The translations under genes were made by a program, and so were the position numbers. From assembly GCF_019430945.1 (NCBI RefSeq), contig NZ_JAHYCB010000004.1, positions 1-64,000 on the forward strand: a stretch of 64,000 nt of DNA. The letters run 5' to 3'. The DNA is from Neorhizobium populisoli. GTDB taxonomy: Bacteria > Pseudomonadota > Alphaproteobacteria > Rhizobiales > Rhizobiaceae. The notes under the pieces are model-generated. The model was not told the DNA's origin and did not search any database. It saw only the letters and a list, made by a program, of their open reading frames with translations. Positions 17,981 through 33,856 of the stretch are shown in pieces (the stretch's first letter is position 1; each line of letters begins with the position of its first letter).

Positions 17981-17998
17981 TTTGCAACAGAGAACCCC

Positions 17999-20395
17999 AT
18001 GACCGAAGCCCCGACGAACGAAATTCTCCTCCTCGCCGGCCTCGATGCCGAGGCGCAAATTCGGGTCGATCGCTGGGGTATCCCGCATATCAAGGCCGCG
18101 AGCGAAAAAGACCTGTTCTTCGTTCAGGGCTTCAATGCCGCCCGCGACCGGCTGTGGCAACTCGATCTCTGGCGCAAGCGCGGCCTTGGCCTGCTGGCTG
18201 CCGATTTCGGCCCCGGCTACCTGGCGCAGGATCATGCTGCCCGGCACTTTCTTTATCGCGGCGATATGGCGCCCGAATGGACTTCCTACGCACCGGATAC
18301 GCAGGCGATCTGCATCGCATTCGCCGCCGGCATCAATGCCTATATTGCACTTTGCGAGGCAGAGCCTTCCCGCCTTCCGCCGGAATTTGCCGTCTTCGGC
18401 ACCAAGCCTGCTTTCTGGCAGCCGTCCGATGTCGTGCGTGTCCGCAGTCATGCGCTGACCCGCAACGGTCTCTCGGAAATCCTGCGCGCCAACATCATGG
18501 CGCTGGCCGACGCCGAAACCGATCTGCTGCGCTACGAGATCGATCCTCCTGTCCAGCCGAAGCCGGCCGATGGCATCGTGCTTGCGGACATTCCGCTGGA
18601 AGCGACCCGCCTTTTCAAGCTCGCGACCGCACCCGTCACCTTCGACAAGACCCGCCTTGCCGCGACACTCGACGATGTCTGGAAATGGACCGAGGTGACC
18701 GATCTCGGCGATATCATCCAGCGTGTCGCGGAAGAAGGTTCCAACAACTGGGCAGTCCACGGTTCGCGCACCGAGGCCGGCCGGCCGATCCTGGCCAGTG
18801 ACCCGCACCGCGCCCATGCCGTACCGTCGCTGCGATACCTCGTGCATCTCGAAGCCCCGGGCTTCAACGCCATCGGCACCGGTGAGCCGACTGCACCGGG
18901 GATTTCACTTGGCCACAACGACAAGATCGCCTTCGGCCTCACCATTTTCGGCGCGGATCAGGAAGACGTTTATGTCTATGAGACGAAGGACGGCGATCCG
19001 GAGCAATATCGTTATGGCGATGGCTGGGAAACGATCAGCCGCGTTGCCGAAACCTTCGAGGTAAAAGGCTATGACGAGCAGACGCTGACGCTCTCTTTCA
19101 CCCGCCACGGCCCGATCCTGTACGAAAACCCGGCAAAGCGGATAGCGATTGCCATGCGTTCCGTCTGGCTGTCTCCCGGCTCGGCCGCCTATCTCGGCAG
19201 CCTTTCCTATATGCGCACGGCGACCGTGACGGATTTCTCCGAAACGCTCCATCATTGGGGCACTCCCTCCGTCAACCATGTCAGCGCCGACATGGACGGC
19301 AATATCGGCTGGTTCACCGCAGGCTTCACGCCGGTACGGCACAATTGGGAAGGCCTGCTGCCGGTACCGGGAAACGGTTCGCGTGAGTGGGACGGCTTCC
19401 TGCCAGCCGACCAGCTTCCACGTAAATACAATCCGGCCGAGGGTTTCGTCGCTTCCGCCAACGAGATGAACCTGCCCGCCAACCGCGATCCAAAGGCGCC
19501 GTCGATCGGTCATGAATGGGCGGAAGTCAGCCGTGCGCAGCGGATAAAGTCCGTCCTGCGCGCCGATCCGCAGCATACGGTGAAAGCATCGATGGCGCTT
19601 CAAACGGATACCTATTCCCGCCCGGCCGCCGTCATCTGCGGCGTTCTGGAAAAAGTTGCCAGCCGTCAACCGCTAACTGCCGAGCAACAGCGGGCGCTTG
19701 TGATGTTCCGCGATTGGGATCATCGCCTTGAAGCGACAAGCGGCTGCGCTGCTCTATTCGAAGTCTGGTGGATGAAGCACCTGCGCCCCGCCCTGCTCGC
19801 GAGGGTTGCGCCGAACCCGATCGTGCGGCAATTGCTGCTGCCGGGCGACGTCGACCGCATGCTCACGCTCCTGTCTGAGACGGGCACCCGCTGGGATGAG
19901 AGTGAGCGCGATGCCATGATGCTCTTGACACTTTCTGCCGGCTTTGCCGATTGCGAAAAGCGTCTCGGCGCCGATCCGGTCACCTGGCAGTGGGGTCACC
20001 TGCACAAAGCGCTGTTCGAACATGCGACCAGTCGCGTAAAGGCCGAAAACATCGCAGATTGGAATGTCGGCCCTCTACCGGTCGGCGGCAGCCGGTCCAC
20101 TGCCATGCATGCCGGCTACCGGATGAGCGATTTCGGCGTCAATGCCGGCGCCTCCGTTCGCCTCGTCATGGATGTCGGCAACTGGGACAATAGTTTTTGC
20201 GTCAACACGCCGGGACAGTCCGGCGACCCGCGCTCACCGCATTACGATGATCTCGCAGAGATCTGGTCGAAAGGGGTATACGTGCCGCTGGTCTACAGCG
20301 AAAAACGTATCGCCGAAGAGACGATCCGCACGATCACGCTTTTGCCGGACACAAGGCACGCTGATCCGCTGAACTTGTCTGGCTTGATGTCGTAG
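17999..20395 (+). CDS. Penicillin-acylase-family amidase (Ntn hydrolase), apparently cytoplasmic
   Basis: This 798-residue precursor is of the type that self-cleaves into alpha and beta chains. The alpha part starts IRVDRWGIPHIKAASEKDLF, the typical opening, and ends at about Gly247. Ser248 of GSNNWAVHGSRT would be the N-terminal nucleophile of the beta chain. Further family motifs are HRAHAVPS, the Asn in NHVSADMDGNIGWF, and ASANEMNLP. The usual Sec signal peptide is absent, unlike many penicillin or acyl-homoserine-lactone acylases. With the importer operon in front, the likely role is cleavage of an imported N-acyl compound in the cytoplasm. The true amide is unknown. Confidence 0.88.
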   Translation: MTEAPTNEILLLAGLDAEAQIRVDRWGIPHIKAASEKDLFFVQGFNAARDRLWQLDLWRKRGLGLLAADFGPGYLAQDHAARHFLYRGDMAPEWTSYAPDTQAICIAFAAGINAYIALCEAEPSRLPPEFAVFGTKPAFWQPSDVVRVRSHALTRNGLSEILRANIMALADAETDLLRYEIDPPVQPKPADGIVLADIPLEATRLFKLATAPVTFDKTRLAATLDDVWKWTEVTDLGDIIQRVAEEGSNNWAVHGSRTEAGRPILASDPHRAHAVPSLRYLVHLEAPGFNAIGTGEPTAPGISLGHNDKIAFGLTIFGADQEDVYVYETKDGDPEQYRYGDGWETISRVAETFEVKGYDEQTLTLSFTRHGPILYENPAKRIAIAMRSVWLSPGSAAYLGSLSYMRTATVTDFSETLHHWGTPSVNHVSADMDGNIGWFTAGFTPVRHNWEGLLPVPGNGSREWDGFLPADQLPRKYNPAEGFVASANEMNLPANRDPKAPSIGHEWAEVSRAQRIKSVLRADPQHTVKASMALQTDTYSRPAAVICGVLEKVASRQPLTAEQQRALVMFRDWDHRLEATSGCAALFEVWWMKHLRPALLARVAPNPIVRQLLLPGDVDRMLTLLSETGTRWDESERDAMMLLTLSAGFADCEKRLGADPVTWQWGHLHKALFEHATSRVKAENIADWNVGPLPVGGSRSTAMHAGYRMSDFGVNAGASVRLVMDVGNWDNSFCVNTPGQSGDPRSPHYDDLAEIWSKGVYVPLVYSEKRIAEETIRTITLLPDTRHADPLNLSGLMS

Positions 20396-20500: not shown

Positions 20501-20753
20501 CTGCATGCCTATGCGCTGCAGATCGAGGGCATGCTCGGACACCTCGTCCTATCTGAAATAAATCAACATCCCGACACTGGTCGTGGCCGGCGGACAGGAC
20601 TGGCTTCTACCCGGCTATCACGCGGAGCAAATTCACGCCGCGCTGCCGTCCTCTGTGCTCGTCCTGATCGACCAAGGCGCGCATTTCATCCCATACCAGC
20701 GGCCGCGGGAATTCGGGCCGCTGGTCAGTTCATTCCGACAGGCTCTGAAGGCT
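20501..20753 (+). pseudogene. Remnant of an alpha/beta-hydrolase C-terminus
   Basis: Two frames together give the end of an alpha/beta-fold hydrolase: HAYALQIEGMLGHLV in one frame, then INIPTLVVAGGQDWLLPG and LVLIDQGAHFIPYQRPREFG after a shift near 20555. These hold the typical strand before the acid residue (GGQD) and the catalytic histidine region (GAHF). No N-terminal part or nucleophile elbow is present upstream. It lies between convergent genes, fills most of a 356-base gap and runs into the end of the TRAP gene. I read it as a decayed fragment. Confidence 0.6.
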
Positions 20754-22617
20754 AGAGCAAAGCTGTCGAGAAGATTGGGAAGACCGCAATCAGGAACAGG
20801 CCGATCAGCAATGCGCCGATATAGGGCCAGATCGCCTTCATCGCATCGTCCGGTGGCACGCCGCCGATCTTACAGGCGATGTAGAAACCGATGCCGATCG
20901 GCGGGGCGATCAGGCCGACATTCATCGCCGTCACCACCACCATCGAGTAATGTACATCGTTGATTCCGAGCGTCTTGGCGATCGGAAACATGATCGGCGC
21001 CATCAGCACGATAGCCGGCAGGCCTTCCAGCACGCAGCCGAGCACCATGAAGATCAGCACCGTCACACCCATGAAGGTAAGCCAGCCGCCCGGAAGATCG
21101 GTCACCGCCTGCGCCAGCTTGAACGCAAACCCGGTCTGGGTCAGTGCCCAAGCCATGGCGGAAGCACAGCCGAGGATAATCAGGATGGCGCCGGACAAGG
21201 CCGCCGTTTCGACCAGCATGCCGTAAAGCTTCTTCAGGCTGATGCCGCCGTAAAGCGTCGCACCGATGATCAGTGCGTAGAGCACGGCGATTGTTGAAAC
21301 TTCCGTCGCCGTCGCGACCCCGCCGCCGACGGCGCTACGGATCAGGAAGGGCAGAAGCAGCGCGGGCGCGGCAACGACGATCGCCTTCCAGATATTCTTG
21401 AGCGATGCGCGTTTCACACCGGCCATGGATTCACGCCGCGACTTCCAGCGAGCGAGAACGGCCAGAACCAGCAGCAGGACCATGGCAATGGCGAAGCCGG
21501 AGGTGAACAGGCCGGCAATCGAAACGCCTGCCGTCGAGCCGAGCACGATCAGCACGATCGACGGCGGCACGGTTTCCGCCATGGCGGCACCGGTCGCCAA
21601 AAGTGCGATCATTTCCGGCGGCTTGTGGCCGCGACGTTTCATTTCCGGGAAGAGCGCCGGTGCGACGGTCGCCATGTCGGAGACTTTCGAGCCGGAAATG
21701 CCGGAGACGAGGAACATCGAACCGAGAAGCACATAGGACATGCCGGCTTTGACGTGGCCAAGCATGGAGGCCAAGACCTCGACGATCGCTTTGCCCATGC
21801 CGGTCGCATCGAGAATGCAGCCGAGCAGAACGAAGATCGGCACGGAAAGCAGGATGATGCTCGACATGCCTTCATCCATGCGGCCGACGATGACGAAGAT
21901 CGGCACGGAACTGGTAAAGGTGAGGAAGGACAAAGCGCCAAGGCCGAAACAGAAGGCGATCGGAACGCCCATGGCAAGCAGGATGCCGACGCCGAAGACC
22001 AGGAAAACGACGATATTCCAGTTGCCGAGTGCCGCCAGCGCCGGCTCCAGCGCAAACAGCGCGCCGCCGACCGCACCGACTAGCACCGCCGCACCAAGCA
22101 GCATGCGGATATTGCCGATCCTCACCCCATGCAGGATGACGATCGCCAGCATCAGCCCGAGGCCGACCGGCAGCGCCGACGCACGCCAGCTCATCGGGAT
22201 CAGCAACGAGGCCGAGGTGACATAACTCTCCTCGATCGCATAATCGATTGCCGGATAAAGCAGGCTGCCGAGAAAGACGGCTGTCAGAAGCAGGCCGACC
22301 GTGGTGACGAATTTCTGCTTTGGCTCGCTGAGGAGATGCAGAAAAACCGTCAGGCGCAGGTGTTCATGGCGGTCGATGGCGATTGCCGCGCCCAGCATCG
22401 CAAGCCAGAGGAAGGCAAGCGATGCGGTTTCATCACCCCAGATGATCGGCGAGGAAAACACGTAACGCGCCGTGACGCCGACGAGAAGAATGCCGATGAT
22501 GAATGTCAGCAGCGCCGCCGCGACCACTTCCACCGGCCGCATCCATAAGGAACCCGGCGCCGATTGCTGCAGCTCCATCAGCGGCAGGTCGTCCATCACG
22601 TCTGAATTGATTGCCAT
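20752..22617 (-). CDS. TRAP transporter fused small and large permease (DctQ-DctM)
   Basis: This 621-residue membrane protein joins both TRAP membrane parts. Residues 1-185 are DctQ-like, with four segments and GDETASLAFLWLAMLGAAIA. From about 190 to 621 it is DctM-like, with about 12 segments and the conserved MGVPIAFCFGLGALSF, SVPIFVLLGCILDATGMG and GLPAIVLMAPIMFPIAK. It pairs with the periplasmic binding protein encoded at 24007-25029, with the LacI regulator gene between. GGAGGACATAA precedes the ATG. Substrates of this family are usually organic or sugar acids, and a branched sugar acid such as apionate would fit the enzymes nearby. Confidence 0.9.
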   Translation of the reverse strand: MAINSDVMDDLPLMELQQSAPGSLWMRPVEVVAAALLTFIIGILLVGVTARYVFSSPIIWGDETASLAFLWLAMLGAAIAIDRHEHLRLTVFLHLLSEPKQKFVTTVGLLLTAVFLGSLLYPAIDYAIEESYVTSASLLIPMSWRASALPVGLGLMLAIVILHGVRIGNIRMLLGAAVLVGAVGGALFALEPALAALGNWNIVVFLVFGVGILLAMGVPIAFCFGLGALSFLTFTSSVPIFVIVGRMDEGMSSIILLSVPIFVLLGCILDATGMGKAIVEVLASMLGHVKAGMSYVLLGSMFLVSGISGSKVSDMATVAPALFPEMKRRGHKPPEMIALLATGAAMAETVPPSIVLIVLGSTAGVSIAGLFTSGFAIAMVLLLVLAVLARWKSRRESMAGVKRASLKNIWKAIVVAAPALLLPFLIRSAVGGGVATATEVSTIAVLYALIIGATLYGGISLKKLYGMLVETAALSGAILIILGCASAMAWALTQTGFAFKLAQAVTDLPGGWLTFMGVTVLIFMVLGCVLEGLPAIVLMAPIMFPIAKTLGINDVHYSMVVVTAMNVGLIAPPIGIGFYIACKIGGVPPDDAMKAIWPYIGALLIGLFLIAVFPIFSTALL

Positions 22618-22846: not shown

Positions 22847-23905
22847 TCACGGCAGGTTTTCCCGGAAAATCACCTCGCTGCGTAGCGGCTCGACATCCTC
22901 GTCCGCCGGCCTGCCATCGCGCAGGTTCTTGAACACCCGAGCAACCCGGCTGATCGTATCGTTCGGGTTCTGCGTAATGACGGCATCCATCGTGCCGTCG
23001 ATCAGGAAGGCGCGGGTATCCGGCGTCAGGCCATGGCCGACGAAGACCAGAGATTCCTCGCGCCGTGCATCCTTGATCGCCTTGCCGACGCCGCTCGCGC
23101 CGCCGCCGATATTGTAGATGCCGGCGAGATCGGGATGTTTGCTCAAAAGCATGCGCATCTGCCGGTAGTTCATGTTCTCGTCGTCATGCCCCTCCCGGAT
23201 GCCGACCACTTCGATATGCGGGTAGCTTTCCTTCAGCACATGCAGGAAACCCATCTCACGCTCCTCATGAGCGCGATAGCTGAGGCTGCCGGCGATCATC
23301 GCCACCTTGGCCGGCGCCTTGCCGACGAAACGGGCAATTAGATAGCCGGCGAGCCGTCCCGTCGAGCGATTGTCGAGGCCGAGATAGGCGGAGCGCTGGG
23401 CATTGCCGATGTCGGAAATCAGCGTCACGGTCGGTACGCCCTTGGCCGAAAGCCGGTTCACCGCCTCCCGCACTGCAGGGTGCTCCAGCGCCATGAAGGC
23501 GATGCCATCCGCCGAGCGGCCATGCCGCTGCAGCGCCACTGCGAGAGCCTCCGGATTGAAACTCTTGATGTATTCCACCGACGGCTTGATGCCATGTTTG
23601 TGGAAAAGTGCGGATTGTTCGACGATCGAGCGGCCGAGATGTGCAAGATACCGGTTGGTCCCTGCCGGCAGCAGGAAGGAGATGTTGGCGAGCGTTTGCG
23701 GCGCGACGGCACTCAACGCATCTTCCTCGACATAGCCCAGTTCGGCGGCCGATCGCATCACCCGCTGCACTGTCGGCGCCCGCACGCCCTGCCGGCCGTT
23801 CAACACGCGATCGACCGTCGCGGTCGAGACGCCGGCATGCCGCGCCACGTCGACAATGGTGGCACGACGGTTGATTTCGATGGGTTCAAGCGTATCTAAC
23901 AACAT
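22847..23905 (-). CDS. LacI-family transcriptional regulator
   Basis: This 352-residue repressor-type protein has the helix-turn-helix ATIVDVARHAGVSTATVDRV followed by hinge NGRQGVRAPTVQRV. A type-1 periplasmic-binding-like sensor domain from about 70 has SLVFVGHGLTPDTRAFLIDG near its end. This subgroup usually senses sugars or sugar acids. It is divergent from the TRAP binding-protein gene, and TRAP permease follows on its own strand, so it probably controls both the TRAP genes and the VOC/RuBisCO-like/kinase genes. An operator region is seen in the 101-base divergent gap. Confidence 0.9.
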   Translation of the reverse strand: MLLDTLEPIEINRRATIVDVARHAGVSTATVDRVLNGRQGVRAPTVQRVMRSAAELGYVEEDALSAVAPQTLANISFLLPAGTNRYLAHLGRSIVEQSALFHKHGIKPSVEYIKSFNPEALAVALQRHGRSADGIAFMALEHPAVREAVNRLSAKGVPTVTLISDIGNAQRSAYLGLDNRSTGRLAGYLIARFVGKAPAKVAMIAGSLSYRAHEEREMGFLHVLKESYPHIEVVGIREGHDDENMNYRQMRMLLSKHPDLAGIYNIGGGASGVGKAIKDARREESLVFVGHGLTPDTRAFLIDGTMDAVITQNPNDTISRVARVFKNLRDGRPADEDVEPLRSEVIFRENLP

Positions 23906-23909
23906 CGGA

Positions 23910-23959
23910 TTACATCAATTTACATCAGATTTCATGTTTGACTTCATCATTCATATGAT
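23910..23959. promoter_or_regulatory. Candidate operator region between LacI and TRAP genes
   Basis: Two direct copies of TTACATCA (23910-23917 and 23920-23927) are spaced by one helical turn, and an inverted repeat ATCAT-TCAT-ATGAT lies at 23946-23959. The region separates the divergent regulator and binding-protein genes, so control of both is likely. Which element is the true operator is not known. Confidence 0.45.
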
Positions 23960-24006: not shown

Positions 24007-25029
24007 ATGACGATGACACTCAACAGGCGCACCCTGCTCAAGGGCCTGGCCGCAGCACCTGCCGCCGGCGCCGTATTTTCGATCCCGCGTTTTGCCAAGG
24101 CCGCCGAAATCCAGCTGCGTTACGGCAACAACCTGCCGCTCAGCCATCCGCTGAACATTCGCGCCAAGGAAGCCGCTGAACGGATTGCCAAGGAAACCGA
24201 CGGCAAGGTGGAGATGCTGATTTTCCCTGCAAACCAGCTCGGCGGCGATACCGACATGCTATCGCAGGTTCGGGGTGGCGCACTCACCTTCTTCACGCCC
24301 TCCTCGCTGGTCATCGCGACGCTGGTTCCGACTGCGGCGCTCAATGCCGTCGGCTTCGCGTTCAAGGATTACGACCAGGTGTGGAAGGCCATGGATGGCC
24401 CGGTCGGCAAGCTGGTGCGGGCAAAGATTGCCGATTCCCGCCTCTATGCCATGGAGACGATGTGGGATAACGGCTTCCGCCAGACCACGACCAGCGGTGC
24501 ACCGATCACCAATGCCGACGGCATGAAGGGCCTGAAAATCCGCGTTCCGGTAAGCCCGCTGTCGATCGACATGTTCTCCGCGCTCGGCGCTTCGCCGACC
24601 AGCCTGCAGTTCTCGGAGGTCTATTCTGCGCTACAGACCAAGGTCGTCGATGCACAAGAAAACCCGCTGCCGATCATTCAGGTCGCCAAGCTTTTCGAAG
24701 TGCAGAAGAACTGCGCGCTCTCCAATCACATCTGGGACGGTTACTGGTTCATCGCCAATGGCCGGCAGTGGTCGGACATGAAGGACGATATCAAGACGGT
24801 CGTTTCCCGCGCCATCAACGAAGCCGGCCTCAAGCAGCGCGCCGATATCGCGGCGTTGAATGCGGGCGTCCAGGCCGATCTCGAAAAGGCAGGCATGAGC
24901 TTCAACAAGGTCGAGACGGACAGCTTCCGCGCCAAGTTGAAAACCGGCGGCTTCTATTCGAAGTGGAGCAAGGAGTTCGGTGCGGAAGCCTGGGGCGCTC
25001 TCGAAAGCGTCGTCGGCTCGCTCGCCTGA
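24007..25029 (+). CDS. TRAP transporter substrate-binding protein, DctP family
   Basis: This 340-residue periplasmic binding protein has a Tat-type signal (NRRTLLKGLAAAPAAGA, cleavage near FAKA). The mature part opens IQLRYGNNLPLSHPLNIRAK, typical of DctP. The conserved arginine that usually pairs with the ligand carboxylate is probably in the GLKIRVPVSPLS segment. The ligand is therefore likely an acid. It is divergent from the LacI gene and followed by a perfect hairpin before the VOC gene. Its membrane partner is the fused permease encoded on the other strand. Confidence 0.9.
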   Translation: MTMTLNRRTLLKGLAAAPAAGAVFSIPRFAKAAEIQLRYGNNLPLSHPLNIRAKEAAERIAKETDGKVEMLIFPANQLGGDTDMLSQVRGGALTFFTPSSLVIATLVPTAALNAVGFAFKDYDQVWKAMDGPVGKLVRAKIADSRLYAMETMWDNGFRQTTTSGAPITNADGMKGLKIRVPVSPLSIDMFSALGASPTSLQFSEVYSALQTKVVDAQENPLPIIQVAKLFEVQKNCALSNHIWDGYWFIANGRQWSDMKDDIKTVVSRAINEAGLKQRADIAALNAGVQADLEKAGMSFNKVETDSFRAKLKTGGFYSKWSKEFGAEAWGALESVVGSLA

Positions 25030-25041
25030 TCTTCGCCTCCC

Positions 25042-25070
25042 GGACGGCGGAACGGGGTATTCCGCCGTCC
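25042..25070 (+). repeat. Intercistronic hairpin after the TRAP binding-protein gene
   Basis: GGACGGCGGAA and TTCCGCCGTCC are exact reverse complements around a 7-base loop, without a T run. It probably stabilises the upstream message or ends part of the transcripts, so that binding protein exceeds the enzymes encoded downstream. Confidence 0.7.
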
Positions 25071-25108
25071 ATCAAATCACATCAGAAAATTAAAGCAAAA
25101 GACATCAC

Positions 25109-25648
25109 ATGAGCCGTTTTTTCGGAAAGATCCGCCAGGCGGGATATGTCGTCGACGATATCGAAGCGGCGATGGATTATTGGAGCCGCGTACTCGGCGT
25201 CGGTCCGTTTTTCTATAATCCGAAAGTTCCGATCGTGAACTATCGCTATAACGGTGAAAGCTATCAGCCACATAATTCGGTGGCGCTCGCCAATTCCGGC
25301 GAGTTGCAGATCGAGCTGATCCAGACCCGTAACCACGTGCCGTCCATGTACAAGGACTTTCGCGATGCCGGCCATCGCGGGCTGCAGCACGTCGCCTATT
25401 GGACGGACAGCTATGACGCCGATCTCGAACGGTTGCTGAAGGAAGGTTTTAAGCCGGTCATGAGCGGCGAAGTGGGTGAAAACGGCCGCTTCATCTATTT
25501 CGACACCCACTATCATCCGGGCACGGTGATCGAGCTTTCGGAAGTTGCCGGCCCAAAGGGCCGCATGTTCGATGCGATCCGCAAAGCGTCGGAAGACTGG
25601 GACGGCAAGGATCCGGTTCGCCCCTTCCCCGATCTCTCCAAGATCTGA
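25109..25648 (+). CDS. VOC-superfamily (glyoxalase-like) protein
   Basis: This 179-residue protein begins with the vicinal-oxygen-chelate motif GYVVDDIEAAMDYWSRVLGV. A second beta-alpha unit follows with HRGLQHVAYWTDSYDADLER and GRFIYFDTHYHPGTVIELSE. The His and Glu positions (LQHVAYW and VIELSE) can supply the metal site of this fold. VOC enzymes include epimerases, isomerases, lyases and dioxygenases. It sits 6 bases before the RuBisCO-like gene. It could therefore catalyse an isomerisation or epimerisation step of the same pathway, by inference. Confidence 0.82.
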   Translation: MSRFFGKIRQAGYVVDDIEAAMDYWSRVLGVGPFFYNPKVPIVNYRYNGESYQPHNSVALANSGELQIELIQTRNHVPSMYKDFRDAGHRGLQHVAYWTDSYDADLERLLKEGFKPVMSGEVGENGRFIYFDTHYHPGTVIELSEVAGPKGRMFDAIRKASEDWDGKDPVRPFPDLSKI

Positions 25649-25653
25649 GGCGC

Positions 25654-26928
25654 ATGGTGACGGACACGCATTTCACCGCCGGTTATCTGATCGAAACGCC
25701 TCTGCCTCTAGCAAAGGTGGCGGAGATCATGGCCGGCGAACAGTCTTCCGGCACGTTCATCCGCGTCGAGGGCGAAACGGACGATCTGCGCGCTCGCGCC
25801 CGTGCAGAGGTGATCGGCATCGAGGATCTCGGCGAGGTCGAATTCCCGACCCTGCCGAGCGCCTGGCTGAACCGCCGCGGCATCTCCGCCCGGTCGCATC
25901 GCGCCACGGTAAAAATCCGCTTCCCGATCGACAATATCGGCGTCAACCTCGCAGCGCTCGCCTCGACGGTTGCCGGCAATCTCTACGATCTCGGCGAAGT
26001 GACGGGGCTGCGGCTGGAGAACATCACCCTGCCCGCCTCCTGGCGACGGCAATACGCGATGCCGAAACAGGGGATCGCCGGCACCCGAAAACTGATGGGC
26101 GTCACCGATGGACCGATGATCGGTTCGATCATCAAGCCGAATGTCGGGCTGACGGCCGAAGATACCGGCAAGCTGGTCGAGCGGCTATGCGCTGCCGGCG
26201 TCGATTTCATTAAGGACGACGAGATTTCCGCCAATCCGGTACATGCGCCGCTTGCCGAGCGCATCCCGGCTGTGATGGCTGCGGTGAAACGCGCCGAGGA
26301 CCATCTCGGCCGCCGCGTGATGATTGCTTTCAACATTACCGACGAGACGGACGCGATGCGCCGCCATGCCGATCAGGTAGCGCGCGAAGGCGGAACCTGC
26401 GTGATGGCGAACCTCAACTGGTGCGGTTTTTCTGCAGTCGAGACGCTGCGGCGCTCCACCGATCTGGCGCTCCACGGCCACCGCAACGGTTTTGGCGCGT
26501 TCTCCCGTTGCGATGTTCTGGGTATCGGTTTCGGGGCCTATCAGGTTCTCTGGCGGCTGGCCGGCGTCGACCACATGCATGTGCATGGCCTGGACGGCAA
26601 GTTCGCGCAGGAAAACAGCGAAGTGATCGACAGTACGGCCATGTGCCTTTCCGCTCTCGACGACCAGTCCGACGACCGTGTCCTGCCGGCCTTCTCCTCC
26701 GGCCAATGGGCAGGCACGGTTCCGGTCACCTGGAAGGCCGCCGGCGGCGACGATTTCCTGTTCATGGCGGGCGGCGGCATCATGGGCCATCCGGGCGGAC
26801 CAGCAGCCGGGATCGAAAGCATCCGCGCGGCCTTCCGGGCGATGAGCGACGGCAAGACGCTGGAAGAGGCGGCCGGATCATCGGAACCTTTGCGTGAAGC
26901 ACTCGCCTTCTTCGGGAAGACTGCATGA
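25654..26928 (+). CDS. RuBisCO-like protein, probably of the 3-oxo-isoapionate-4-phosphate type
   Basis: This 424-residue form IV RuBisCO homologue keeps the catalytic lysine K161 in GSIIKPNVGL, the metal-site lysine and acids K187, D189 and E190 in FIKDDE, and H276-R277 in GHRNGF. The canonical KPK is KPN, and the phosphate-site SGG is GGG (AGGGIMGHPGG), so it is not a carbon-fixing enzyme. The DUF1537 kinase gene overlaps its stop by 4 bases. RuBisCO-like protein plus DUF1537 kinase is the known OiaX or OiaT plus OiaK pair of D-apionate breakdown, where the phosphorylated oxo acid is decarboxylated or hydrolysed. Which of the two reactions this protein performs cannot be read. Confidence 0.85.
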   Translation: MVTDTHFTAGYLIETPLPLAKVAEIMAGEQSSGTFIRVEGETDDLRARARAEVIGIEDLGEVEFPTLPSAWLNRRGISARSHRATVKIRFPIDNIGVNLAALASTVAGNLYDLGEVTGLRLENITLPASWRRQYAMPKQGIAGTRKLMGVTDGPMIGSIIKPNVGLTAEDTGKLVERLCAAGVDFIKDDEISANPVHAPLAERIPAVMAAVKRAEDHLGRRVMIAFNITDETDAMRRHADQVAREGGTCVMANLNWCGFSAVETLRRSTDLALHGHRNGFGAFSRCDVLGIGFGAYQVLWRLAGVDHMHVHGLDGKFAQENSEVIDSTAMCLSALDDQSDDRVLPAFSSGQWAGTVPVTWKAAGGDDFLFMAGGGIMGHPGGPAAGIESIRAAFRAMSDGKTLEEAAGSSEPLREALAFFGKTA

Positions 26929-28235
26929 GCATGCCGGCCAAAACCCCGTTTTACGGCTGGTATGGCGACGATTTCACCGGCGCGACGGACACTTTGGCGA
27001 CGTTGTCGCTACGTGGGGTAAAGGCCTTCCTCTTTCTTGGCCCACCATCCGAACGGCAATTGGCGCAGGCCGGCGAACTCGATGCCATCGGCATCGCCGG
27101 TTCGGCACGCACCATGTCGCCGGCTGCGATGGAAGCCGAACTGGAACCGGTCGGCCGTTTTTTTGCCGAAGCGGGCATTCGGCTCCTGCATTACAAATGC
27201 TGTTCGACCTTTGATAGCGCGCCCGAAATTGGCAATATCGCGGTGGCGGTGAGGGTACTGCGCCGTTTCGTCAGCCGCGAGCAGGCTTTCATCCTGGGGG
27301 GACAGCCTTCGCTCGGTCGCTATTGCGCTTTCGGCAACCTGTTTGCCGCAGGCGGCGCAAGCGGCGTCCACCGCCTCGACCGGCATCCGACCATGAGTCG
27401 CCACCCCTCGACGCCGATGACCGAGGCCGATCTGCGCCGGCACTTGCAGGCGCTTGGCGCCGGTGAGATCGCGCTAGTGCCGTGGACCGCATTGGATGCC
27501 GGCGACACTACGCTGGAAGCGCAGGCGGACATTCTTTTCGATGCGCTGACACAGGACCACATCGCGACGATCGGCAAGGCGCTCAACCGGTTTGCCGAGG
27601 AAGGTTCGTTTATAATTGCCGGAGCCAGCAGCGTGGCAGAGGCTGTCTATCAAGATCGTGCAGCCTCTCCACCGGCCTTCTCAGCGACCGATAGCGGCCC
27701 CGTCCTGGCTGTCGCCGGCTCTCTGTCGCCCCTTACGCACCTACAGGTGGAGGCTGCGACAGCTTATATCCGCATTGAAGCGGATGCCGAGCGTTTCGTC
27801 AGCGAAGAAAGCTATCGCGAACGACTGGCAGCAAAAATCTGCCTCTCGCTCTGCGAGGAGCGCAATGTGCTGCTATCCACAGCACCGCAAAACCCGGCCT
27901 CGATCTCAGGTGCGAATGCCGAACTTGCGGAAGCCACCGGCCGTTTTGTCGATCGCCTGCTCGATCAGGTCCCGGTCCGCCGATTGATCGCCGCCGGCGG
28001 CGACACGTCCAGCCATCTTGCCCAAAATCTCGGGCTCTGGGGGCTGGCCTATGGCGGGCAACTCTCGCCCGGCGTCGCGATTTCCACCGGCCGAAGCGAC
28101 AATCCGGCTCGCGATGGCATGACCCTGATGCTGAAGGGCGGACAGATGGGCAGTGTCGATCTTTTCGACCGCTTTGCTGTTATCCCCTCTCAAACTGTGA
28201 TCCCGAACGATCAGCTGGCGATCAATACCCGATGA
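26925..28235 (+). CDS. DUF1537-family (four-carbon acid sugar) kinase, probably 3-oxo-isoapionate kinase
   Basis: This 436-residue kinase has the N-terminal sugar-acid-binding domain with GWYGDDFTGATDTLATLSL and HYKCCSTFDSAPEIGNI. The C-terminal nucleotide-binding domain has RRLIAAGGDTSSHLAQNLG and GVAISTGRSDN. Members phosphorylate D-threonate, D-erythronate or 3-oxo-isoapionate. The overlap (ATGA) with a RuBisCO-like gene favours 3-oxo-isoapionate (OiaK), since that pair acts in sequence. The TRAP acid transporter and LacI regulator complete a catabolic module. It is the last gene before the nitrate locus. Confidence 0.85.
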   Translation: MSMPAKTPFYGWYGDDFTGATDTLATLSLRGVKAFLFLGPPSERQLAQAGELDAIGIAGSARTMSPAAMEAELEPVGRFFAEAGIRLLHYKCCSTFDSAPEIGNIAVAVRVLRRFVSREQAFILGGQPSLGRYCAFGNLFAAGGASGVHRLDRHPTMSRHPSTPMTEADLRRHLQALGAGEIALVPWTALDAGDTTLEAQADILFDALTQDHIATIGKALNRFAEEGSFIIAGASSVAEAVYQDRAASPPAFSATDSGPVLAVAGSLSPLTHLQVEAATAYIRIEADAERFVSEESYRERLAAKICLSLCEERNVLLSTAPQNPASISGANAELAEATGRFVDRLLDQVPVRRLIAAGGDTSSHLAQNLGLWGLAYGGQLSPGVAISTGRSDNPARDGMTLMLKGGQMGSVDLFDRFAVIPSQTVIPNDQLAINTR

Positions 28236-28385: not shown

Positions 28386-28973
28386 ATGCCGGCCTCCGAT
28401 CTCACCATTCTGGTCATCGATGAAAACGCCATCCGCGCCTCCATTATCGAGGAAGGATTGCGAGAGGCGGGGCATGAGAACGTTACGGTCGTCCAGGAAG
28501 TGAACGGCATCGCGCGTATTATCGAAACTTCCAAGCCTGACGTGATCGTCATCGATATCGAAAACCCCAACCGCGATATGATGGAACATCTTTTCCAGCT
28601 TACGCGGACGGTGAGCCGGCCGATCGCCATGTTCGTCGATCGCTCGGATACGGCACAGATCGAGGCTGCGATGGAGGCGGGCGTTTCCGCCTATGTGGTC
28701 GATGGGCTGAAGAAAGAACGGGTCAAGTCGATCCTCGACATGGCGGTCAGCCGCTTCAACGCTTTCAGCCGCCTGCAGCGGGAACTGGCAGAAGCCAAAT
28801 CGGCACTTGAAGAACGCAAGGTCGTCGACCGCGCCAAGGGCATCTTGATGAAGATGCGCGGGCTCTCCGAGGAGGATGCCTTCGTATTGCTGCGCCAGAC
28901 CGCCATGAACGAAAAGAAAAAGATGTCCGAAATTGCCCAGAGCGTCGTTACCGCCGCAGGACTTCTGATGTGA
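28386..28973 (+). CDS. nasT: ANTAR-domain response regulator, nitrate antiterminator NasT
   Basis: This 195-residue protein has a receiver-like domain at 1-120 (ILVIDENAIRASIIEEGLRE, then VIVIDIENPNRDM) and a C-terminal ANTAR domain (about 130-190) containing VVDRAKGILMKMRGLSEEDA and FVLLRQTAMNEKKKMSEIAQ. ANTAR proteins bind paired hexaloop hairpins in leader RNA and prevent termination. It is followed after 43 bases by nasS, whose product sequesters NasT without nitrate. Its target is most likely the nrtA leader at 30472-30603. I saw no strong ribosome-binding site before the ATG. Confidence 0.92.
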   Translation: MPASDLTILVIDENAIRASIIEEGLREAGHENVTVVQEVNGIARIIETSKPDVIVIDIENPNRDMMEHLFQLTRTVSRPIAMFVDRSDTAQIEAAMEAGVSAYVVDGLKKERVKSILDMAVSRFNAFSRLQRELAEAKSALEERKVVDRAKGILMKMRGLSEEDAFVLLRQTAMNEKKKMSEIAQSVVTAAGLLM

Positions 28974-29016
28974 TTTGGGTTTCCGAGATGATGGAATATC
29001 CGGGAGAGAGCCGGAA

Positions 29017-30294
29017 ATGAACATGATGAGCAGTATCGACCTACCCGGGAGCAATCTTGCGGCACCTTTCCGTTCCAATGGCGAAGGCCCGAAAGTGCTG
29101 TGTGTCGGCTTCATTCCACTCGTGGACGCTTCGGTTCTGATCGCTGCCGCCGAATTCGGGTTTGCCCGTAAAGAAGGCCTGACGCTCGATCTGGTCAAGG
29201 ATGTCTCCTGGGCCAATGTCCGCGACCGCCTTGCATTCCGGCAGTTCGATATCGCCCATATGCTCTCTCCCATGCCGGTCGCCTCGATGCTGGGTCTCGG
29301 CTCCAATCCCTCACCGACCATCACACCATTTTCGCTCGGCCGCGGCGGCAATGCGATTACGCTCTCGACACGGCTATTCGAGCGCATGCGCGAAGTGGGC
29401 GGGATTTCGGAAAACGCCAGCGCATTGGAGAATGCAAAAGCGCTCGCGAAAGTGCTCGCGGCGATGAAAGCGCGCGGCGAACCGCTGCCGATGTTGGGCG
29501 TCACCTATCCGTTCTCCTCCCACAATTACGAATTCCGCTACTGGCTGGCCGCCGGCGGCATCGACCCGGACAAGGACGTCAAGCTTGTCGTCGTGCCGCC
29601 ACCGCTCACGTCCGACGCTCTCGTCGCTGGAGCGATCGACGGTTTTTGCGTCGGGGCGCCGTGGAACATGATCGCTTCGGAACGAGGCGTCGGCCGCATC
29701 GTCGCCGCGAAGCAGGATATCTGGCCGTCTGCCCCGGAAAAGGTCGTCGCCATGCGGCCGGAATGGGCGGAAAGCCATCCGGAAATCGTTTCACGCCTGA
29801 TCGTCGCGCTGGATGCAGCGGCGCACTGGTGTGATGCCGCTGAAAACCATGATGCGCTTGCCGAAGCGCTGGCCGATCCGCGCTATATAGCGGCTCCGGT
29901 CGAGATCATCCGGCATGTGCTGGCTGGCGAATTCAGCCTGGATGCCAAAGGCAACCGCCGGATCATTCCCGATTATTTCAGGTTCCATCGCGACTTTGCG
30001 AACTATCCGAAACCCGGACATGCGCTCTGGATCTACAGCCAGATGATCCGCTGGGGACAGGCGCAGCTCAGCGAAGAGGGCCTGCGCGCTGCCGCAGGCA
30101 CCTATCGGCCGGACCTTTATCAAGCCGCACTCGGCATCGGCCCGTCGGAAACCGATCATGGCCTGGAAGGGATAAAGAGTGGCGACCGCTTCATGGATGG
30201 CCATGTTTTCGACCCCGGGGCCATCGGCGCCTATGTCGAAAATTTTGCCGTAAGCAGCCCGCCGCCCATTCATTCCTTAGAGCAGGACGTCTGA
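29017..30294 (+). CDS. nasS: Nitrate sensor NasS (NrtA/CmpA-like, cytoplasmic)
   Basis: This 425-residue protein is homologous to the nitrate-binding protein NrtA but has no signal peptide. It opens VLCVGFIPLVDASVLIAAAE and has the ligand-region motifs FDIAHMLSPMPVASMLGLGS, ITPFSLGRGGNAITLS and VDGFCV-like IDGFCVGAPWN. In NasS-NasT systems NasS holds NasT inactive until nitrate or nitrite binds. I start at ATG 29017, preceded by GGGAGAGAG. It lies directly after nasT and before the nrtA promoter region. Confidence 0.9.
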   Translation: MNMMSSIDLPGSNLAAPFRSNGEGPKVLCVGFIPLVDASVLIAAAEFGFARKEGLTLDLVKDVSWANVRDRLAFRQFDIAHMLSPMPVASMLGLGSNPSPTITPFSLGRGGNAITLSTRLFERMREVGGISENASALENAKALAKVLAAMKARGEPLPMLGVTYPFSSHNYEFRYWLAAGGIDPDKDVKLVVVPPPLTSDALVAGAIDGFCVGAPWNMIASERGVGRIVAAKQDIWPSAPEKVVAMRPEWAESHPEIVSRLIVALDAAAHWCDAAENHDALAEALADPRYIAAPVEIIRHVLAGEFSLDAKGNRRIIPDYFRFHRDFANYPKPGHALWIYSQMIRWGQAQLSEEGLRAAAGTYRPDLYQAALGIGPSETDHGLEGIKSGDRFMDGHVFDPGAIGAYVENFAVSSPPPIHSLEQDV

Positions 30295-30445
30295 TTTTTC
30301 AAAGTGCACTGCACATCATTTACGCGTCTTGGATTTAGCAAGCGCACAAAATAGTCGCGATGAAATTAAAAGCGCAAAATCTATCCATTTCCCAAAAGAC
30401 GATATTTCAGTTTATTTTCAACCACATGGTCCAGATTTTTTAAAC

Positions 30446-30460
30446 TGGCACGCCTCTTGC
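30446..30460 (+). promoter_or_regulatory. Sigma-54 promoter of the nitrate assimilation operon
   Basis: TGGCACG-CCTC-TTGC matches the RpoN consensus at every position, with GG at 30447-30448 and GC at 30459-30460 separated by ten bases. Transcription would begin at about 30472, at the first leader hairpin. Upstream activation by NtrC is expected from known nitrogen control. I could not identify a convincing NtrC site in 30295-30440, which is AT-richer than the surroundings and otherwise empty. Confidence 0.85.
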
Positions 30461-30471
30461 GTTCTAACTCT

Positions 30472-30603
30472 TGCACCGGTCAACGGCGATCGGTGCAGAT
30501 GAGCGCGGCATAAGCGCTTACAAAAGACACCGACGTCGCAAGGTTTTTGCTGCCTGGGAATCCTCCTTATCCCGCGGGCGCAATCTCCGAGCGGCGTTTT
30601 TTT
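30472..30603 (+). ncRNA. ANTAR-type leader RNA with terminator, target of NasT
   Basis: At the start of the transcript a 10-base stem (5' arm TGCACCGGTC at 30473-30482, 3' arm GATCGGTGCA, one G-U pair) closes a hexaloop AACGGC, with A at position 1 and G at position 4 as ANTAR targets require. A second hairpin candidate is AGCGC/GCGCT at 30502-30518 with a 7-base loop, less canonical. A GC-rich segment with CCGC/GCGG pairing then leads into seven T (30597-30603), read as the terminator that NasT would overcome. nrtA starts 50 bases later. Function is inferred from known NasT/NasR systems. Confidence 0.75.
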
Positions 30604-30652
30604 GTGCCTGAAAACCGGCCAGCCCGAACCTGGCAGCAGAGGGAACCTGCGC

Positions 30653-31951
30653 ATGACGAAGATTTTGACGACCGGCATCTCCCGCCGCAGCATGCTCAAG
30701 ACAACCGCCACCGCTGCCCTTGTAGGCGCGATCAAGACCGCGTTCCCATCCGGCGCTTTTGCCGCCGCCCCGGGGCCTGAAGTGAAGGGCATCAAGCTCG
30801 GCTATATCGCGCTGACCGATGCCGCCCCCCTTATCATCGCCAAGGAAAAAGGCCTTTTCGACAAACACGGCCTGCCGGAAGTCGATGTCGCCAAGCAGGC
30901 TTCCTGGGGCGCGACGCGCGATAACCTCGTGCTCGGCGGCGCCGCAAACGGCATTGACGGCGCCCACATCCTCTCGCCGCTTCCCTATCTGATGCATACC
31001 GGCAAGGTAACCCAGAACAACAAGCCGGTGCCGATGGCGATCCTCGCTCGCCTCAACCTCGACAGCCAGGGTCTCTCAGTCGCCAAGGAATATGCCTCGA
31101 CCGGCGTGCAGCTCGACGCCTCGAAGCTGAAGGAAGCCTTCGCGAAAAAGAAGGCAACCGGCAACGAGGTGAAGGTCGCGATGACTTTCCCGGGCGGCAC
31201 CCACGACCTCTGGATTCGCTACTGGCTCGCCGCCGGAGGCATCGACCCGAACAAGGACGTCTCGACCATCGTCGTGCCGCCGCCGCAGATGGTGGCGAAC
31301 ATGAAGGTCGGCAACATGGACGCCTTCTGTGTCGGCGAGCCGTGGAACGAACAGCTCGTCAACCAGGGCATCGGTTTCACGGCCGCCACGACCGGCGAGC
31401 TCTGGAAGGGTCATCCGGAAAAGGCGCTCGGCATTCGCGCCGACTGGCTGGAAAAGAACCCGAACGCCGCCAAGGCCTTGCTGATGGCCATCATGGAAGC
31501 CCAGCAATGGGCGGAGAAGATGGAAAACAAGGAGGAGATGGCGGACATTCTCGGCCGTCGGCAGTGGTTCAACGTGCCGCCGAAGGATGTGCTCGGCCGC
31601 CTGAAGGGCGACATCAACTACGGCAACGGCCACGACGTGAAGGGTACCGACCTCTTCATGAAGTTCTGGCGCGACCACGCCTCCTATCCGTTCAAGAGCC
31701 ACGACAGCTGGTTCGTCACGGAAAACATCCGCTGGGGCACGTTTGCCCCGAATACCGACATCAATAAGCTGGTCGATCAGGTGAACCGCGACGACGTCTG
31801 GCGCGAAGCAGCCAAGGAACTTGGCGTTGCCGCGGCCGATATCCCGGCCTCATCCTCGCGCGGCAAGGAGACCTTCTTCGACGGTAAGGTCTTCGATCCG
31901 GAAAACCCCTCCGCCTATCTCGACAGCCTGTCGATCAAGGCCGCGTCGTGA
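30653..31951 (+). CDS. nrtA: Nitrate ABC transporter substrate-binding protein NrtA
   Basis: This 432-residue CmpA/NrtA-family protein has a Tat signal (SRRSMLKTTATAALVGAIKT, cleavage near AFAA). The mature part opens VKGIKLGYIALTDAAPLIIA and includes GAHILSPLPYLMHTGKV, MTFPGGTHDLWIRYWLAAGG and MDAFCVGEPWN, which shape the nitrate site. AGAGGGA lies before the ATG at 30653. It is the first gene of the operon nrtABC-nirB-nirD-nasA-cysG-like. A RIME-like repeat separates it from nrtB. Confidence 0.92.
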   Translation: MTKILTTGISRRSMLKTTATAALVGAIKTAFPSGAFAAAPGPEVKGIKLGYIALTDAAPLIIAKEKGLFDKHGLPEVDVAKQASWGATRDNLVLGGAANGIDGAHILSPLPYLMHTGKVTQNNKPVPMAILARLNLDSQGLSVAKEYASTGVQLDASKLKEAFAKKKATGNEVKVAMTFPGGTHDLWIRYWLAAGGIDPNKDVSTIVVPPPQMVANMKVGNMDAFCVGEPWNEQLVNQGIGFTAATTGELWKGHPEKALGIRADWLEKNPNAAKALLMAIMEAQQWAEKMENKEEMADILGRRQWFNVPPKDVLGRLKGDINYGNGHDVKGTDLFMKFWRDHASYPFKSHDSWFVTENIRWGTFAPNTDINKLVDQVNRDDVWREAAKELGVAAADIPASSSRGKETFFDGKVFDPENPSAYLDSLSIKAAS

Positions 31952-31963
31952 TGCGTCGAGTTT

Positions 31964-32124
31964 GCCCCTCATCCGCCTGCCGGCACCTTCTCCCCGTTTT
32001 GACGAGGAGAAGCACGCATGCCGCACTGTCTCTCTCCCTCTCCTACGTAGCGCAGGGCACGTCCCCTCTCCCCGCGCGCGGGGAGAGGCGGAGAGCAGCG
32101 AGCTGTTCTCTGGGTGAGGGGCGC
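31964..32124. repeat. RIME-like mosaic repeat between nrtA and nrtB
   Basis: The 161-base element begins GCCCCTCATCCGCCTGCCGG and ends TGGGTGAGGGGCGC. It contains a CCTTCTCCCCG-type half-palindrome and a second stem CTCCCCGCGCGCGGGGAG. It lies inside an operon and would form strong RNA hairpins between the binding-protein and permease messages. Confidence 0.8.
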
Positions 32125-32160
32125 TTTCACGCCATGCACTTGAATTAAAAGGAATAACCC

Positions 32161-33042
32161 ATGTCCGCATTGGCAAAGAATGAGATTGCCACCCCAAAGG
32201 CGACACCCAGACCGGCAAACGTCGTCCACTTGGCAAAACAGACGCCGCGTCGCGTTGACTTCAAGCGCATCGGCGCGACTACGCTGCAGAACATCGCCCC
32301 GCCCCTCGTCGTCCTGGCTCTGATCCTGCTGGTCTGGCAGGTCCTCTGTTCCTCGCCGGATGCCTCGCTGCCCTCGCCTCATCGCGTGTGGCTGGAGGCC
32401 TACGACCTGATTGCCTACCCGTTCTTCAACTACGGCTCGCAGGATATCGGCCTCGGCTGGCGCGTGCTCGTCTCGCTGCAGCGCGTCGCCTACGGCTTCG
32501 GCATGGCGGCCGTGGTAGGCGTCATTATCGGCGCGATCATTGGCCAGTCGGTCTGGGCGATGCGCGGCCTCGATCCGATCTTCCAGGTACTGCGCACCGT
32601 GCCGCCGCTCGCCTGGCTGCCGCTGTCGCTGGCTGCATTCCAGAATGCCTACCCTTCAGCAATCTTCGTGATCTTCATCACTTCGATCTGGCCGGTGATC
32701 ATCAACACCGCCGTTGGCGTGCGCAATATCCCGCAGGATTATCGCAACGTCGCGCAGGTTCTGCGGCTCAACCAGTTCGAATTCTTCTTCAAGATCATGC
32801 TGCCATCTGCCGCACCCTACATCTTCACGGGGCTTCGGATCGGCGTTGGCCTCTCGTGGCTGGCGATCGTTGCTGCCGAAATGCTGACTGGCGGCGTCGG
32901 CATCGGCTTCTTCATCTGGGATGCGTGGAACTCGTCGCGCCTGCCCGACATCATCGTCGCACTCGCCTACATCGGCGTCGTCGGCTTCGCGCTCGACAAG
33001 CTCGTGGCAGCAGCCGGCAAACTCGTCACCCGCGGCGCATAG
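32161..33042 (+). CDS. nrtB: Nitrate ABC transporter permease NrtB
   Basis: This 293-residue inner-membrane protein has a polar N-terminus of about 45 residues and six hydrophobic segments (first at about 45-62). NrtB motifs are VWAMRGLDPIFQVLRTVPPL, the FITSIWPVIINTAVGVRNIP stretch and the coupling loop FFFKIMLPSAAPYIFTGLR. It follows nrtA after the RIME-like repeat and is 7 bases from the ATPase gene. It carries nitrate across the inner membrane with NrtA and the ATPase. Confidence 0.92.
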   Translation: MSALAKNEIATPKATPRPANVVHLAKQTPRRVDFKRIGATTLQNIAPPLVVLALILLVWQVLCSSPDASLPSPHRVWLEAYDLIAYPFFNYGSQDIGLGWRVLVSLQRVAYGFGMAAVVGVIIGAIIGQSVWAMRGLDPIFQVLRTVPPLAWLPLSLAAFQNAYPSAIFVIFITSIWPVIINTAVGVRNIPQDYRNVAQVLRLNQFEFFFKIMLPSAAPYIFTGLRIGVGLSWLAIVAAEMLTGGVGIGFFIWDAWNSSRLPDIIVALAYIGVVGFALDKLVAAAGKLVTRGA

Positions 33043-33049
33043 GAGCGAC

Positions 33050-33850
33050 ATGATGAACGCCTATCTCAAGCTCGACCATATCGACAAGCATTTCGACCGC
33101 GGCGGCATGCGCGCCGAAGTCCTGAAGGACATCAACCTGACGATCTCGAAAGGTGAATATGTCTCGATCATCGGCCATTCCGGCTGCGGCAAGTCCACGC
33201 TGCTCAACCTGATCGCCGGCCTCACGCCGGTCTCGAAGGGCGCCGTCCTTCTCGAAAACTGTGAGGTCAATGATCCCGGCCCGGAACGCGCCGTGGTCTT
33301 CCAGAACCATTCGCTGCTGCCCTGGCTGACGGTCTATGAAAACGTCAATCTCGCCGTCTCCAAGGTCTTCAAGAACACCAAGACCAAGGCGGAGAAGCAC
33401 GACTGGGTGATGGCCAATCTCGACCTGGTGCAGATGGCGCATGCCAAGGATAAGCGCCCCTCGGAAATCTCCGGCGGCATGAAGCAGCGCGTCGGCATTG
33501 CCCGCGCCCTTGCCATGGAACCGAAGATTCTGCTGCTCGACGAACCGTTCGGGGCGCTCGATGCCCTGACCCGCGCCCATCTGCAGGATGCCGTGATGGA
33601 AATCCACGCCCGGCTCGGCAACACGATGGTGATGATCACCCACGATGTGGACGAAGCCGTGCTGCTCTCCGACCGCATCGTGATGATGACCAATGGCCCG
33701 GCCGCCCGCATCGGCGAAATCCTTGAAGTGCCGATCCTACGCCCACGCAACCGCATCGAACTCGCCTCCGACCGCACGTATCTGAAGTGCCGCGAGGCCG
33801 TCCTGAAATTCCTCTACGAGCGCCACCGCTTCGTCGAAGCCGCGGAGTAA
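33050..33850 (+). CDS. nrtC: Nitrate ABC transporter ATPase
   Basis: This 266-residue ATPase has Walker A GHSGCGKST, Q-loop VVFQNHSLLPW, signature ISGGMKQRVGIARAL, Walker B ILLLDEPFGALDAL and the switch histidine in ITHDVDEAVLL. It lacks the regulatory binding-protein-like C-terminal domain of cyanobacterial NrtC, so it is the short NrtD-like form that rhizobial annotation often calls NrtC. AGGAG precedes two adjacent ATG codons at 33050 and 33053; either could be used. The nirB gene follows after 6 bases. Confidence 0.88.
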   Translation: MMNAYLKLDHIDKHFDRGGMRAEVLKDINLTISKGEYVSIIGHSGCGKSTLLNLIAGLTPVSKGAVLLENCEVNDPGPERAVVFQNHSLLPWLTVYENVNLAVSKVFKNTKTKAEKHDWVMANLDLVQMAHAKDKRPSEISGGMKQRVGIARALAMEPKILLLDEPFGALDALTRAHLQDAVMEIHARLGNTMVMITHDVDEAVLLSDRIVMMTNGPAARIGEILEVPILRPRNRIELASDRTYLKCREAVLKFLYERHRFVEAAE

Positions 33851-33856
33851 CGACCT

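Follow-up and report, generated by a model that had tools for sequence, protein, structure and literature searches.

A 64,000-nucleotide stretch of the Neorhizobium populisoli genome (contig NZ_JAHYCB010000004.1, positions 1 to 64,000; the window) carries adjoining genes for a VOC protein, a RuBisCO-like protein (RLP), and a DUF1537-type kinase next to a TRAP transporter, and raises the question of what such a cassette degrades. The original prediction linked the RLP and kinase to OiaX or OiaT and to OiaK of D-apionate breakdown, a pathway that needs the apionate oxidoisomerase ApnO, and saw no gene for that enzyme. By the list of open reading frames (ORFs) and Pfam, the TRAP, LacI, VOC, RLP, and kinase genes all lie where that prediction had placed them (Table 1). 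The genes for the TRAP solute-binding protein (SBP), VOC protein, RLP, and kinase form one compact run on the + strand adjoining the divergent LacI and TRAP permease genes; the RLP and kinase genes share ATGA, in agreement with the predicted overlap, and the VOC-RLP intergenic gap is 5 bases rather than the 6 first given. The gene run is not due to chance, as it recurs in all 80 of the related loci kept, and the cassette is widespread, occurring across alpha- and betaproteobacteria. The reading preferred here, with about an even chance of being right, is that the cassette is sugar-acid catabolic, does not need an oxidoreductase of its own, uses a VOC isomerase in place of ApnO, and ends in cleavage by an RLP like OiaX or OiaT.

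The oxidoisomerase was sought in the whole host genome (6.84 Mb in 52 contigs, rated 99.99% complete), a search proposed with the original prediction. Neither the profile of PF16896, which we take to be the family of ApnO, nor an ApnO-type protein from a relative gave a match there; the 14 control genomes of the PF16896 search gave no match either. The PGAP name of this family is carried by a gene beside an RLP and a kinase in locus L189. As a positive control, PF16896 matched 60 of the 247 genomes of a family sample, including all 43 with an OiaX above the curated cut-off. The cassette is present in 13 genomes of that sample; eight of these are without PF16896, and each of the five with it (G090, G133, G148, G206, and G226) has another RLP that either is OiaX or has ApnO nearby. 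A purpose-built ApnO profile has no match in the window, in the 80 loci from named genomes, in eight plasmid loci, or in 17 further cassette loci; it matches eight of eight ApnO loci, but its 51 source sequences include those eight, and these positives are not independent. In the 80 loci there were also 13 apparent ApnO matches, the highest at no more than 84 bits; each lies over the RLP gene and was read as the product of over-extended reference ORFs. The profile result is that with trimmed references, and it leaves all 80 fetched stretches without ApnO. The ApnO by which a genome would be assigned the D-apionate pathway is not found here, so the first observation holds for the window and the genome, and the alternative that the oxidoisomerase lies elsewhere finds no support in the genome-wide search. 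An ordinary apionate pathway with a distant ApnO of the known family would account for the resemblance of the RLP and kinase to OiaX and OiaK, but is hardly credible given the lack of PF16896 and ApnO-type matches in so complete a genome and the eight of 13 cassette genomes without PF16896.

The best 80 of 402 RLP relatives in named genomes, a set that cannot show the VOC link to be universal, have the VOC, RLP, and kinase genes colinear on a single strand in every locus. Median identity is 83.8% for VOC, 67.7% for RLP, and 48.8% for the kinase; VOC identity exceeds that of RLP in 74 of the 80 loci, and RLP identity exceeds that of the kinase in all of them. A LacI match is present in all 80 and a TRAP permease match in 76, with distant SBP and permease matches in L078 (31 and 28%). 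Read from sequence, the content and order of the genes are those of a set inherited together. In the Roseobacter-side cassettes L084, L085, L086, and L088 the SBP is merely 26-29% identical while VOC-RLP-kinase is kept, and therefore the enzymes, not the transporter, appear to be the core. An SDR gene lies between lacI and the SBP gene in seven of the 80 loci and is 74.8-78.7% identical to the SDR of L087 (an eighth match, of 30% in L078, was left out of the count); these loci look as if an alcohol were imported and then oxidised first.

Because the RLP-first set, as the best 80 of 402, is unable to show universality, searches were also begun from VOC. In three samples pooled, 40 of 42 top VOC genes adjoin a window-type RLP, two of these being judged by position only. 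In the 247-genome family sample, 13 VOC genes score at least 315 bits and belong to the 13 genomes with the cassette, the RLP being assigned by tree or phmmer score. All 18 VOC genes of at least 328 bits in a 200-genome sample around Pandoraea adjoin an RLP most like the window-clade references, and nine of 11 of at least 346 bits in a 296-genome sample around G247 adjoin such an RLP, seven by similarity and two (G261 and G266) by position. These limits were chosen post hoc at gaps in the lists (315 to 124.5, 328.6 to 202, and 346.5 to 287 bits), and exclude 5, 8, and 21 lower VOC matches, respectively. Neighbourhoods were fetched for 37 of 38 RLP matches of 379-454 bits in the family sample, the window's own excepted, and for 20 of 33 RLP matches of at least 412 bits in the sample around G247.

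The two exceptions bear on what the enzymes act upon. G370 (L248) has the LacI, SBP, TRAP, and VOC genes of the cassette and then, at the usual place, an RLP-kinase pair from ApnO-linked clades; each member of the pair shares 74% identity with its counterpart in L253, a locus that also has ApnO. G343 has a LacI-SBP-VOC locus (L269) that lacks an RLP, a kinase, and any recognised TRAP permease; the ApnO-RLP-kinase set of L253 is at another place in its genome. The simplest reading, drawn from one swap, is that the VOC/TRAP part may feed an intermediate that either type of RLP-kinase pair can use.

The RLP belongs to the RuBisCO superfamily, with a RuBisCO_large domain and K187, D189, and E190. 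The best curated NCBIfam match of the RLP is the OiaX model (3-oxo-isoapionate-4-phosphate decarboxylase, NF042437) at 387.5 bits, and that of the kinase is the OiaK model NF042436 at 254.8 bits; the predicted link to OiaX and OiaK thus survives as nearest curated relatives and fails as membership, since both scores are far under cut-offs of 700 bits. The RuBisCO models score 236.7 (type III, cut-off 497.45), 218.3 (438), and 120.6 bits (489), and the two MtnW models 171.8 (409) and 149.7 bits (513.6). The methionine-salvage enolase MtnW, the identity that the original prediction named as fatal to it, is therefore matched less well than OiaX. An MtnW enolase or a CO2-fixing RuBisCO would share the superfamily, and was rejected on these NCBIfam scores, all of which are under cut-off; with N163 where RuBisCO, in the numbering that we assume, has K177, and with this gene context, its probability is close to nil.

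K161, K187, D189, and E190 are kept as the original prediction had it, and are invariant in all 107 aligned members of the window RLP clade. Together with E29, N109, H276, R277, H309, K316, S349, G374, and G375, they occupy the catalytic and phosphate-binding places of RuBisCO (spinach numbering). Other residues set the clade (107 rows, with many close relatives among them) apart from 74 rows of other RLPs. N163 is fixed in the clade, with S in 47 and A in 27 of the others; H311 is fixed, with N in all 74; T355 is fixed, with Q in 69; and G315, beside K316, is fixed and is changed in the others. Position 280 is F or Y in the clade and W in all 74 others, and position 319 is Q in 92 rows and D in 15, against E in 73 of 74. 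The alignment suggests that the handling of metal and phosphate is retained and that the substrate pocket has changed.

Phylogeny separates the RLP in the same way. Its nearest solved structure is 3nwr (555.9 bits; next structure 167.7 bits), deposited merely as "a rubisco-like protein." A quick tree of 79 RLPs joins 32 VOC-linked rows and 3nwr in a single group (support 100), and in a careful tree of 69 rows this group has 24 rows (100/100). Both the OiaX clade (100/100) and a 32-row clade with support of 100/96 lie apart from it, the latter containing the remaining rows labelled ApnO-linked, among them the RLP-kinase-ApnO-TRAP operons of the G247-family sample. The main split is the same in both trees, of which the quick one has long branches and neither uses a mixture model. 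Placement against OiaX, which had been proposed as a check, thus puts the RLP in a separate clade both times; with clade-specific residues in the active-site loops and a position outside the OiaX clade and the main ApnO-linked clade, it is by these tests not OiaX proper. Relatives up to 92.8% identical to 3nwr adjoin VOC in the 10 loci where 3nwr is the best reference. The genomes differ as well, since PF16896 accompanies OiaX in 43 of 43 cases and is missing from the window genome.

The closest functional comparison is the OiaK plus OiaT type of D-apionate operon, seen in eight loci of the G247-family sample (L241-L247 and L249), in which an RLP gene is likewise followed by a DUF1537 kinase gene, with TRAP genes, and in which the catalytic Lys, Asp, and Glu are kept as in the window RLP. 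These operons have ApnO, whereas the window cassette has VOC and LacI; their RLP and kinase are of other clades, and they have S, N, W, and E where the window RLP has N163, H311, F/Y280, and Q319. The OiaT-type label rests on operon content, the kinship of these operons to Xanthobacter being an assumption; the tree that places the window RLP outside their clade is without the named X. autotrophicus OiaT, and no NCBIfam OiaT model matched. According to PMC6302742, A. radiobacter K84 is the source of the decarboxylating RLP and X. autotrophicus BAA-1158 that of the transcarboxylating one. It is possible, if unlikely, that the RLP does the work of OiaT and the kinase that of OiaK: 3-oxo-isoapionate itself would be the intermediate, taken up as such or formed by VOC from a different isomer, and 3-phosphoglycerate and glycolate would result. 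The swap in G370, the arrangement in G343, and the best curated matches all point this way, but the separate clade, the altered pocket residues, and scores far under the cut-offs do not, and use of glycolate is not supported by a GlcD search, in which the best match is under cut-off. A separate RLP subgroup (L142, L144, L145, L148, L153, and L156) has ApnO-type genes near and no kinase match in the fetched stretch.

Nearest to the VOC-linked RLPs (90/82, not starred) are the RLPs of SDR-linked loci in Cupriavidus, Caballeronia, Bradyrhizobium elkanii, and Chimaeribacter. The RLP-kinase-TRAP loci in the first three have SBP and permease homologous to those of the window, and the Chimaeribacter locus has MFS in place of TRAP. 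All have SDR genes instead of VOC, with no VOC of the window kind found near, and in L183 an ApnO-type gene lies at a distance of about 6 kb. Two of these loci, L183 (on a Cupriavidus pinatubonensis plasmid) and L089 (on a B. elkanii plasmid), are near lower-glycolysis genes (enolase and PEP carboxylase, pyruvate kinase), which may point to a product at the level of 3-phosphoglycerate. A further possibility is that the RLP serves the breakdown of a branched sugar as an oxygenase, in the manner of the D-hamamelose RLP reported for Ochrobactrum anthropi: PMC8914248 and PMC10176493 cite Kim, Lim and Lee 2018 for an oxygenase RLP with 3-phosphoglycerate and glycolate as products. Such a role is quite improbable here, for the gene run shows no sugar dehydrogenase or lactonase beside the cassette in the window.

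The window kinase shares a clade of its own with the kinases of related cassettes, and matches the 3-oxo-tetronate kinase (OtnK) model NF043035 at 162.4 bits (cut-off 350). This match is one reason to consider a four-carbon route. OtnI interconverts 2-oxo- and 3-oxo-tetronate; VOC would have this role, the kinase would form the 4-phosphate, and the RLP would decarboxylate it, in the role of OtnC, to dihydroxyacetone phosphate. Weaker VOC relatives that adjoin TRAP and DUF1537 kinase genes, with a PdxA-like gene in L271 and L272, are consistent with such a route. We nevertheless regard it as distinctly unlikely, as the OiaK model fits the kinase better (254.8 bits), the OtnK score is well under 350, and the swap in G370 points to OiaT-type enzymes.

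The VOC protein is placed in its superfamily by Glyoxalase_4 (83.3 bits), by the fold of its model, and by four invariant ligand-type residues, and metal binding is predicted. All 29 sequences compared keep these residues, Q10, E69, H94, and E142, which sit at the VOC metal-ligand places and match the set of human glyoxalase I. The AlphaFold2 model (pLDDT 89.1) has its best structural match in the putative methylmalonyl-CoA epimerase 3gm5 (Z 17.4, 1.9 Å, 138 residues), followed by epimerases (Z about 12-13), glyoxalase I (Z 12.4), and HPPD-type domains. The protein reaches only 25.1 bits with the methylmalonyl-CoA epimerase model TIGR03081 (cut-off 114.95), and its gene context differs from that of methylmalonyl-CoA epimerase and glyoxalase I, with which it shares the fold. 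The best fit is an isomerase or epimerase that works through an enediolate. The lower VOC matches set aside above include relatives of about 180-230 bits that adjoin SDR genes in other catabolic settings (L296-L303, L273, L274, and L276), with an SDR beside eight of eight in the Pandoraea-family sample and three of the four looked at in the G247-family sample.

The transporter is of the TRAP type, with DctP, DctQ, and DctM domains all present in Pfam searches. The SBP model (pLDDT 78.9) is nearest to 4oan (Z 32.8, 3.1 Å over 294 residues, 52% identity), the entry for Rhodopseudomonas palustris HaA2 RPB_2686. We take the density in 4oan to have been modelled as (S)-2-hydroxy-2-methyl-3-oxobutanoate (acetolactate), the skeleton of which is like that of 3-oxo-isoapionate. 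Little weight is given to this, because in G356, the genome with the 100% match, no RLP lies within the 20 kb surrounding that match, and 4oan was set aside as a direct clue to the ligand. The review PMC5812351 lists 2-acetolactate among new TRAP ligands, with the protein not named. As for control, the pattern ACATCA-N4-ACATCA has three matches in the window against 0.16 expected; it was derived from the region upstream of SBP genes in relatives, so that only the VOC-side copy is independent. With at most one mismatch allowed, 15 of the 19 sequences scanned have a copy of the repeat in the 4.5 kb preceding VOC, and three have one directly before VOC. This suggests joint control, with the repeats as a possible operator, although their direct-repeat form is unusual for a LacI regulator. 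A promoter and terminator scan was uninformative.

In the route preferred here, the TRAP system would import a hydroxylated acid that already bears an oxo group. Uptake of an acid at the oxo level is probable because VOC, kinase, and RLP need no redox partner. VOC, as a metal-dependent isomerase of the glyoxalase type, would convert the acid through an enediolate to its 3-oxo form, a step that apionate-type pathways leave to ApnO or a dehydrogenase; the kinase would then phosphorylate a terminal hydroxyl. With a carbamylated K187 and Mg2+, the RLP may decarboxylate the phosphorylated 3-oxo acid, or shift its carboxyl and then hydrolyse it, as OiaX and OiaT do, and the products would be intermediates of central metabolism. 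The cassette would thus work like OiaK plus OiaX or OiaT, yet its proteins fall short of the scores that define OiaX and OiaK. Two of the earlier suggestions, that TRAP imports a later intermediate and that VOC performs an analogous isomerisation, fit together because the cassette is without an oxidoreductase.

Several points weigh against this route. Substrate and activity are inferred throughout, and the RLP-kinase swap is seen in one genome only (G370). VOC relatives of 279-287 bits in G257, G285, and G301 adjoin SBP, TRAP, and DUF1537 kinase genes with no RLP in the stretch; among such loci, L271 and L272 have the PdxA-like gene (the label is ours) and L270 a DeoC/LacD-family aldolase. VOC could instead be a dioxygenase or a lyase, as its model also resembles HPPD-type domains, and the loop residues N163, H311, F/Y280, and Q319 of the RLP would allow quite a different reaction. 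A dehydrogenase or other enzyme encoded at another locus could contribute, so that the acid need not be at the oxo level when imported. The best GlcD match in the genome has 455.6 of the 567.9 bits of the cut-off, and neither supports nor excludes a glycolate product.

The coordinates of the cassette are collected in Table 1. Other genes of the window were judged from translations only. Next to the TRAP permease gene, positions 16008-20395 encode two oligopeptide-type ABC ATPases and a penicillin-acylase-like protein (798 aa), and positions 28386-36307 resemble a nitrate/nitrite assimilation cluster with an ANTAR-type regulator, two NrtA-like proteins, a permease, an ATPase, and a NirB-like reductase.

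Table 1. Features of the VOC-RLP-kinase cassette and its surroundings, in window coordinates.
Feature	Position	Strand	Evidence
Fused DctQ-DctM TRAP permease	20752..22617	-	Pfam DctM 377.6 bits, DctQ 88.2 bits
LacI-family regulator, divergent from SBP gene	22847..23905	-	Pfam LacI 50.3 bits, Peripla_BP_4 143.4 bits
Conserved direct repeats ACATCA-N4-ACATCA 5' of SBP gene, possible operator	23902..23927	+	
DctP-type TRAP SBP	24007..25029	+	Pfam DctP 235.6 bits; nearest solved structure 4oan
Extra ACATCA-N4-ACATCA copy, 40 bases 5' of VOC start	25069..25084	+	present in 3 of 19 scanned sequences
VOC (glyoxalase-fold) protein, putative metal-dependent isomerase	25109..25648	+	Pfam Glyoxalase_4 83.3 bits (cut-off 27)
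RLP, 3nwr clade	25654..26928	+	Pfam RuBisCO_large 213.9 bits (cut-off 30.1)
DUF1537-type four-carbon acid sugar kinase	26925..28235	+	Pfam SBD_N 166 bits, NBD_C 92.6 bits

A search of the open-access literature found no description of this VOC-RLP-kinase set, from which its absence from print does not follow. Only a handful of RLPs have been characterised, according to PMC10176493, and the clade described here includes a solved structure, 3nwr, whose deposited name gives no function. The steady company of VOC, kinase, and the usual TRAP partners, with the ApnO-linked-clade pair in G370, leaves few enzymes and a restricted range of chemistry to consider. We propose tentatively, and with rather less than even confidence, that VOC catalyses an undescribed oxo-acid isomerisation that replaces ApnO or a dehydrogenase, and that the 3nwr-type RLP performs a new C-C cleavage or transcarboxylation on the phosphorylated product. 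If this is true, a single three-enzyme route would hold both a function new to VOC proteins and a reaction new to the RuBisCO superfamily, and the cassette could extend the range of the RuBisCO fold and add a function to the VOC superfamily.

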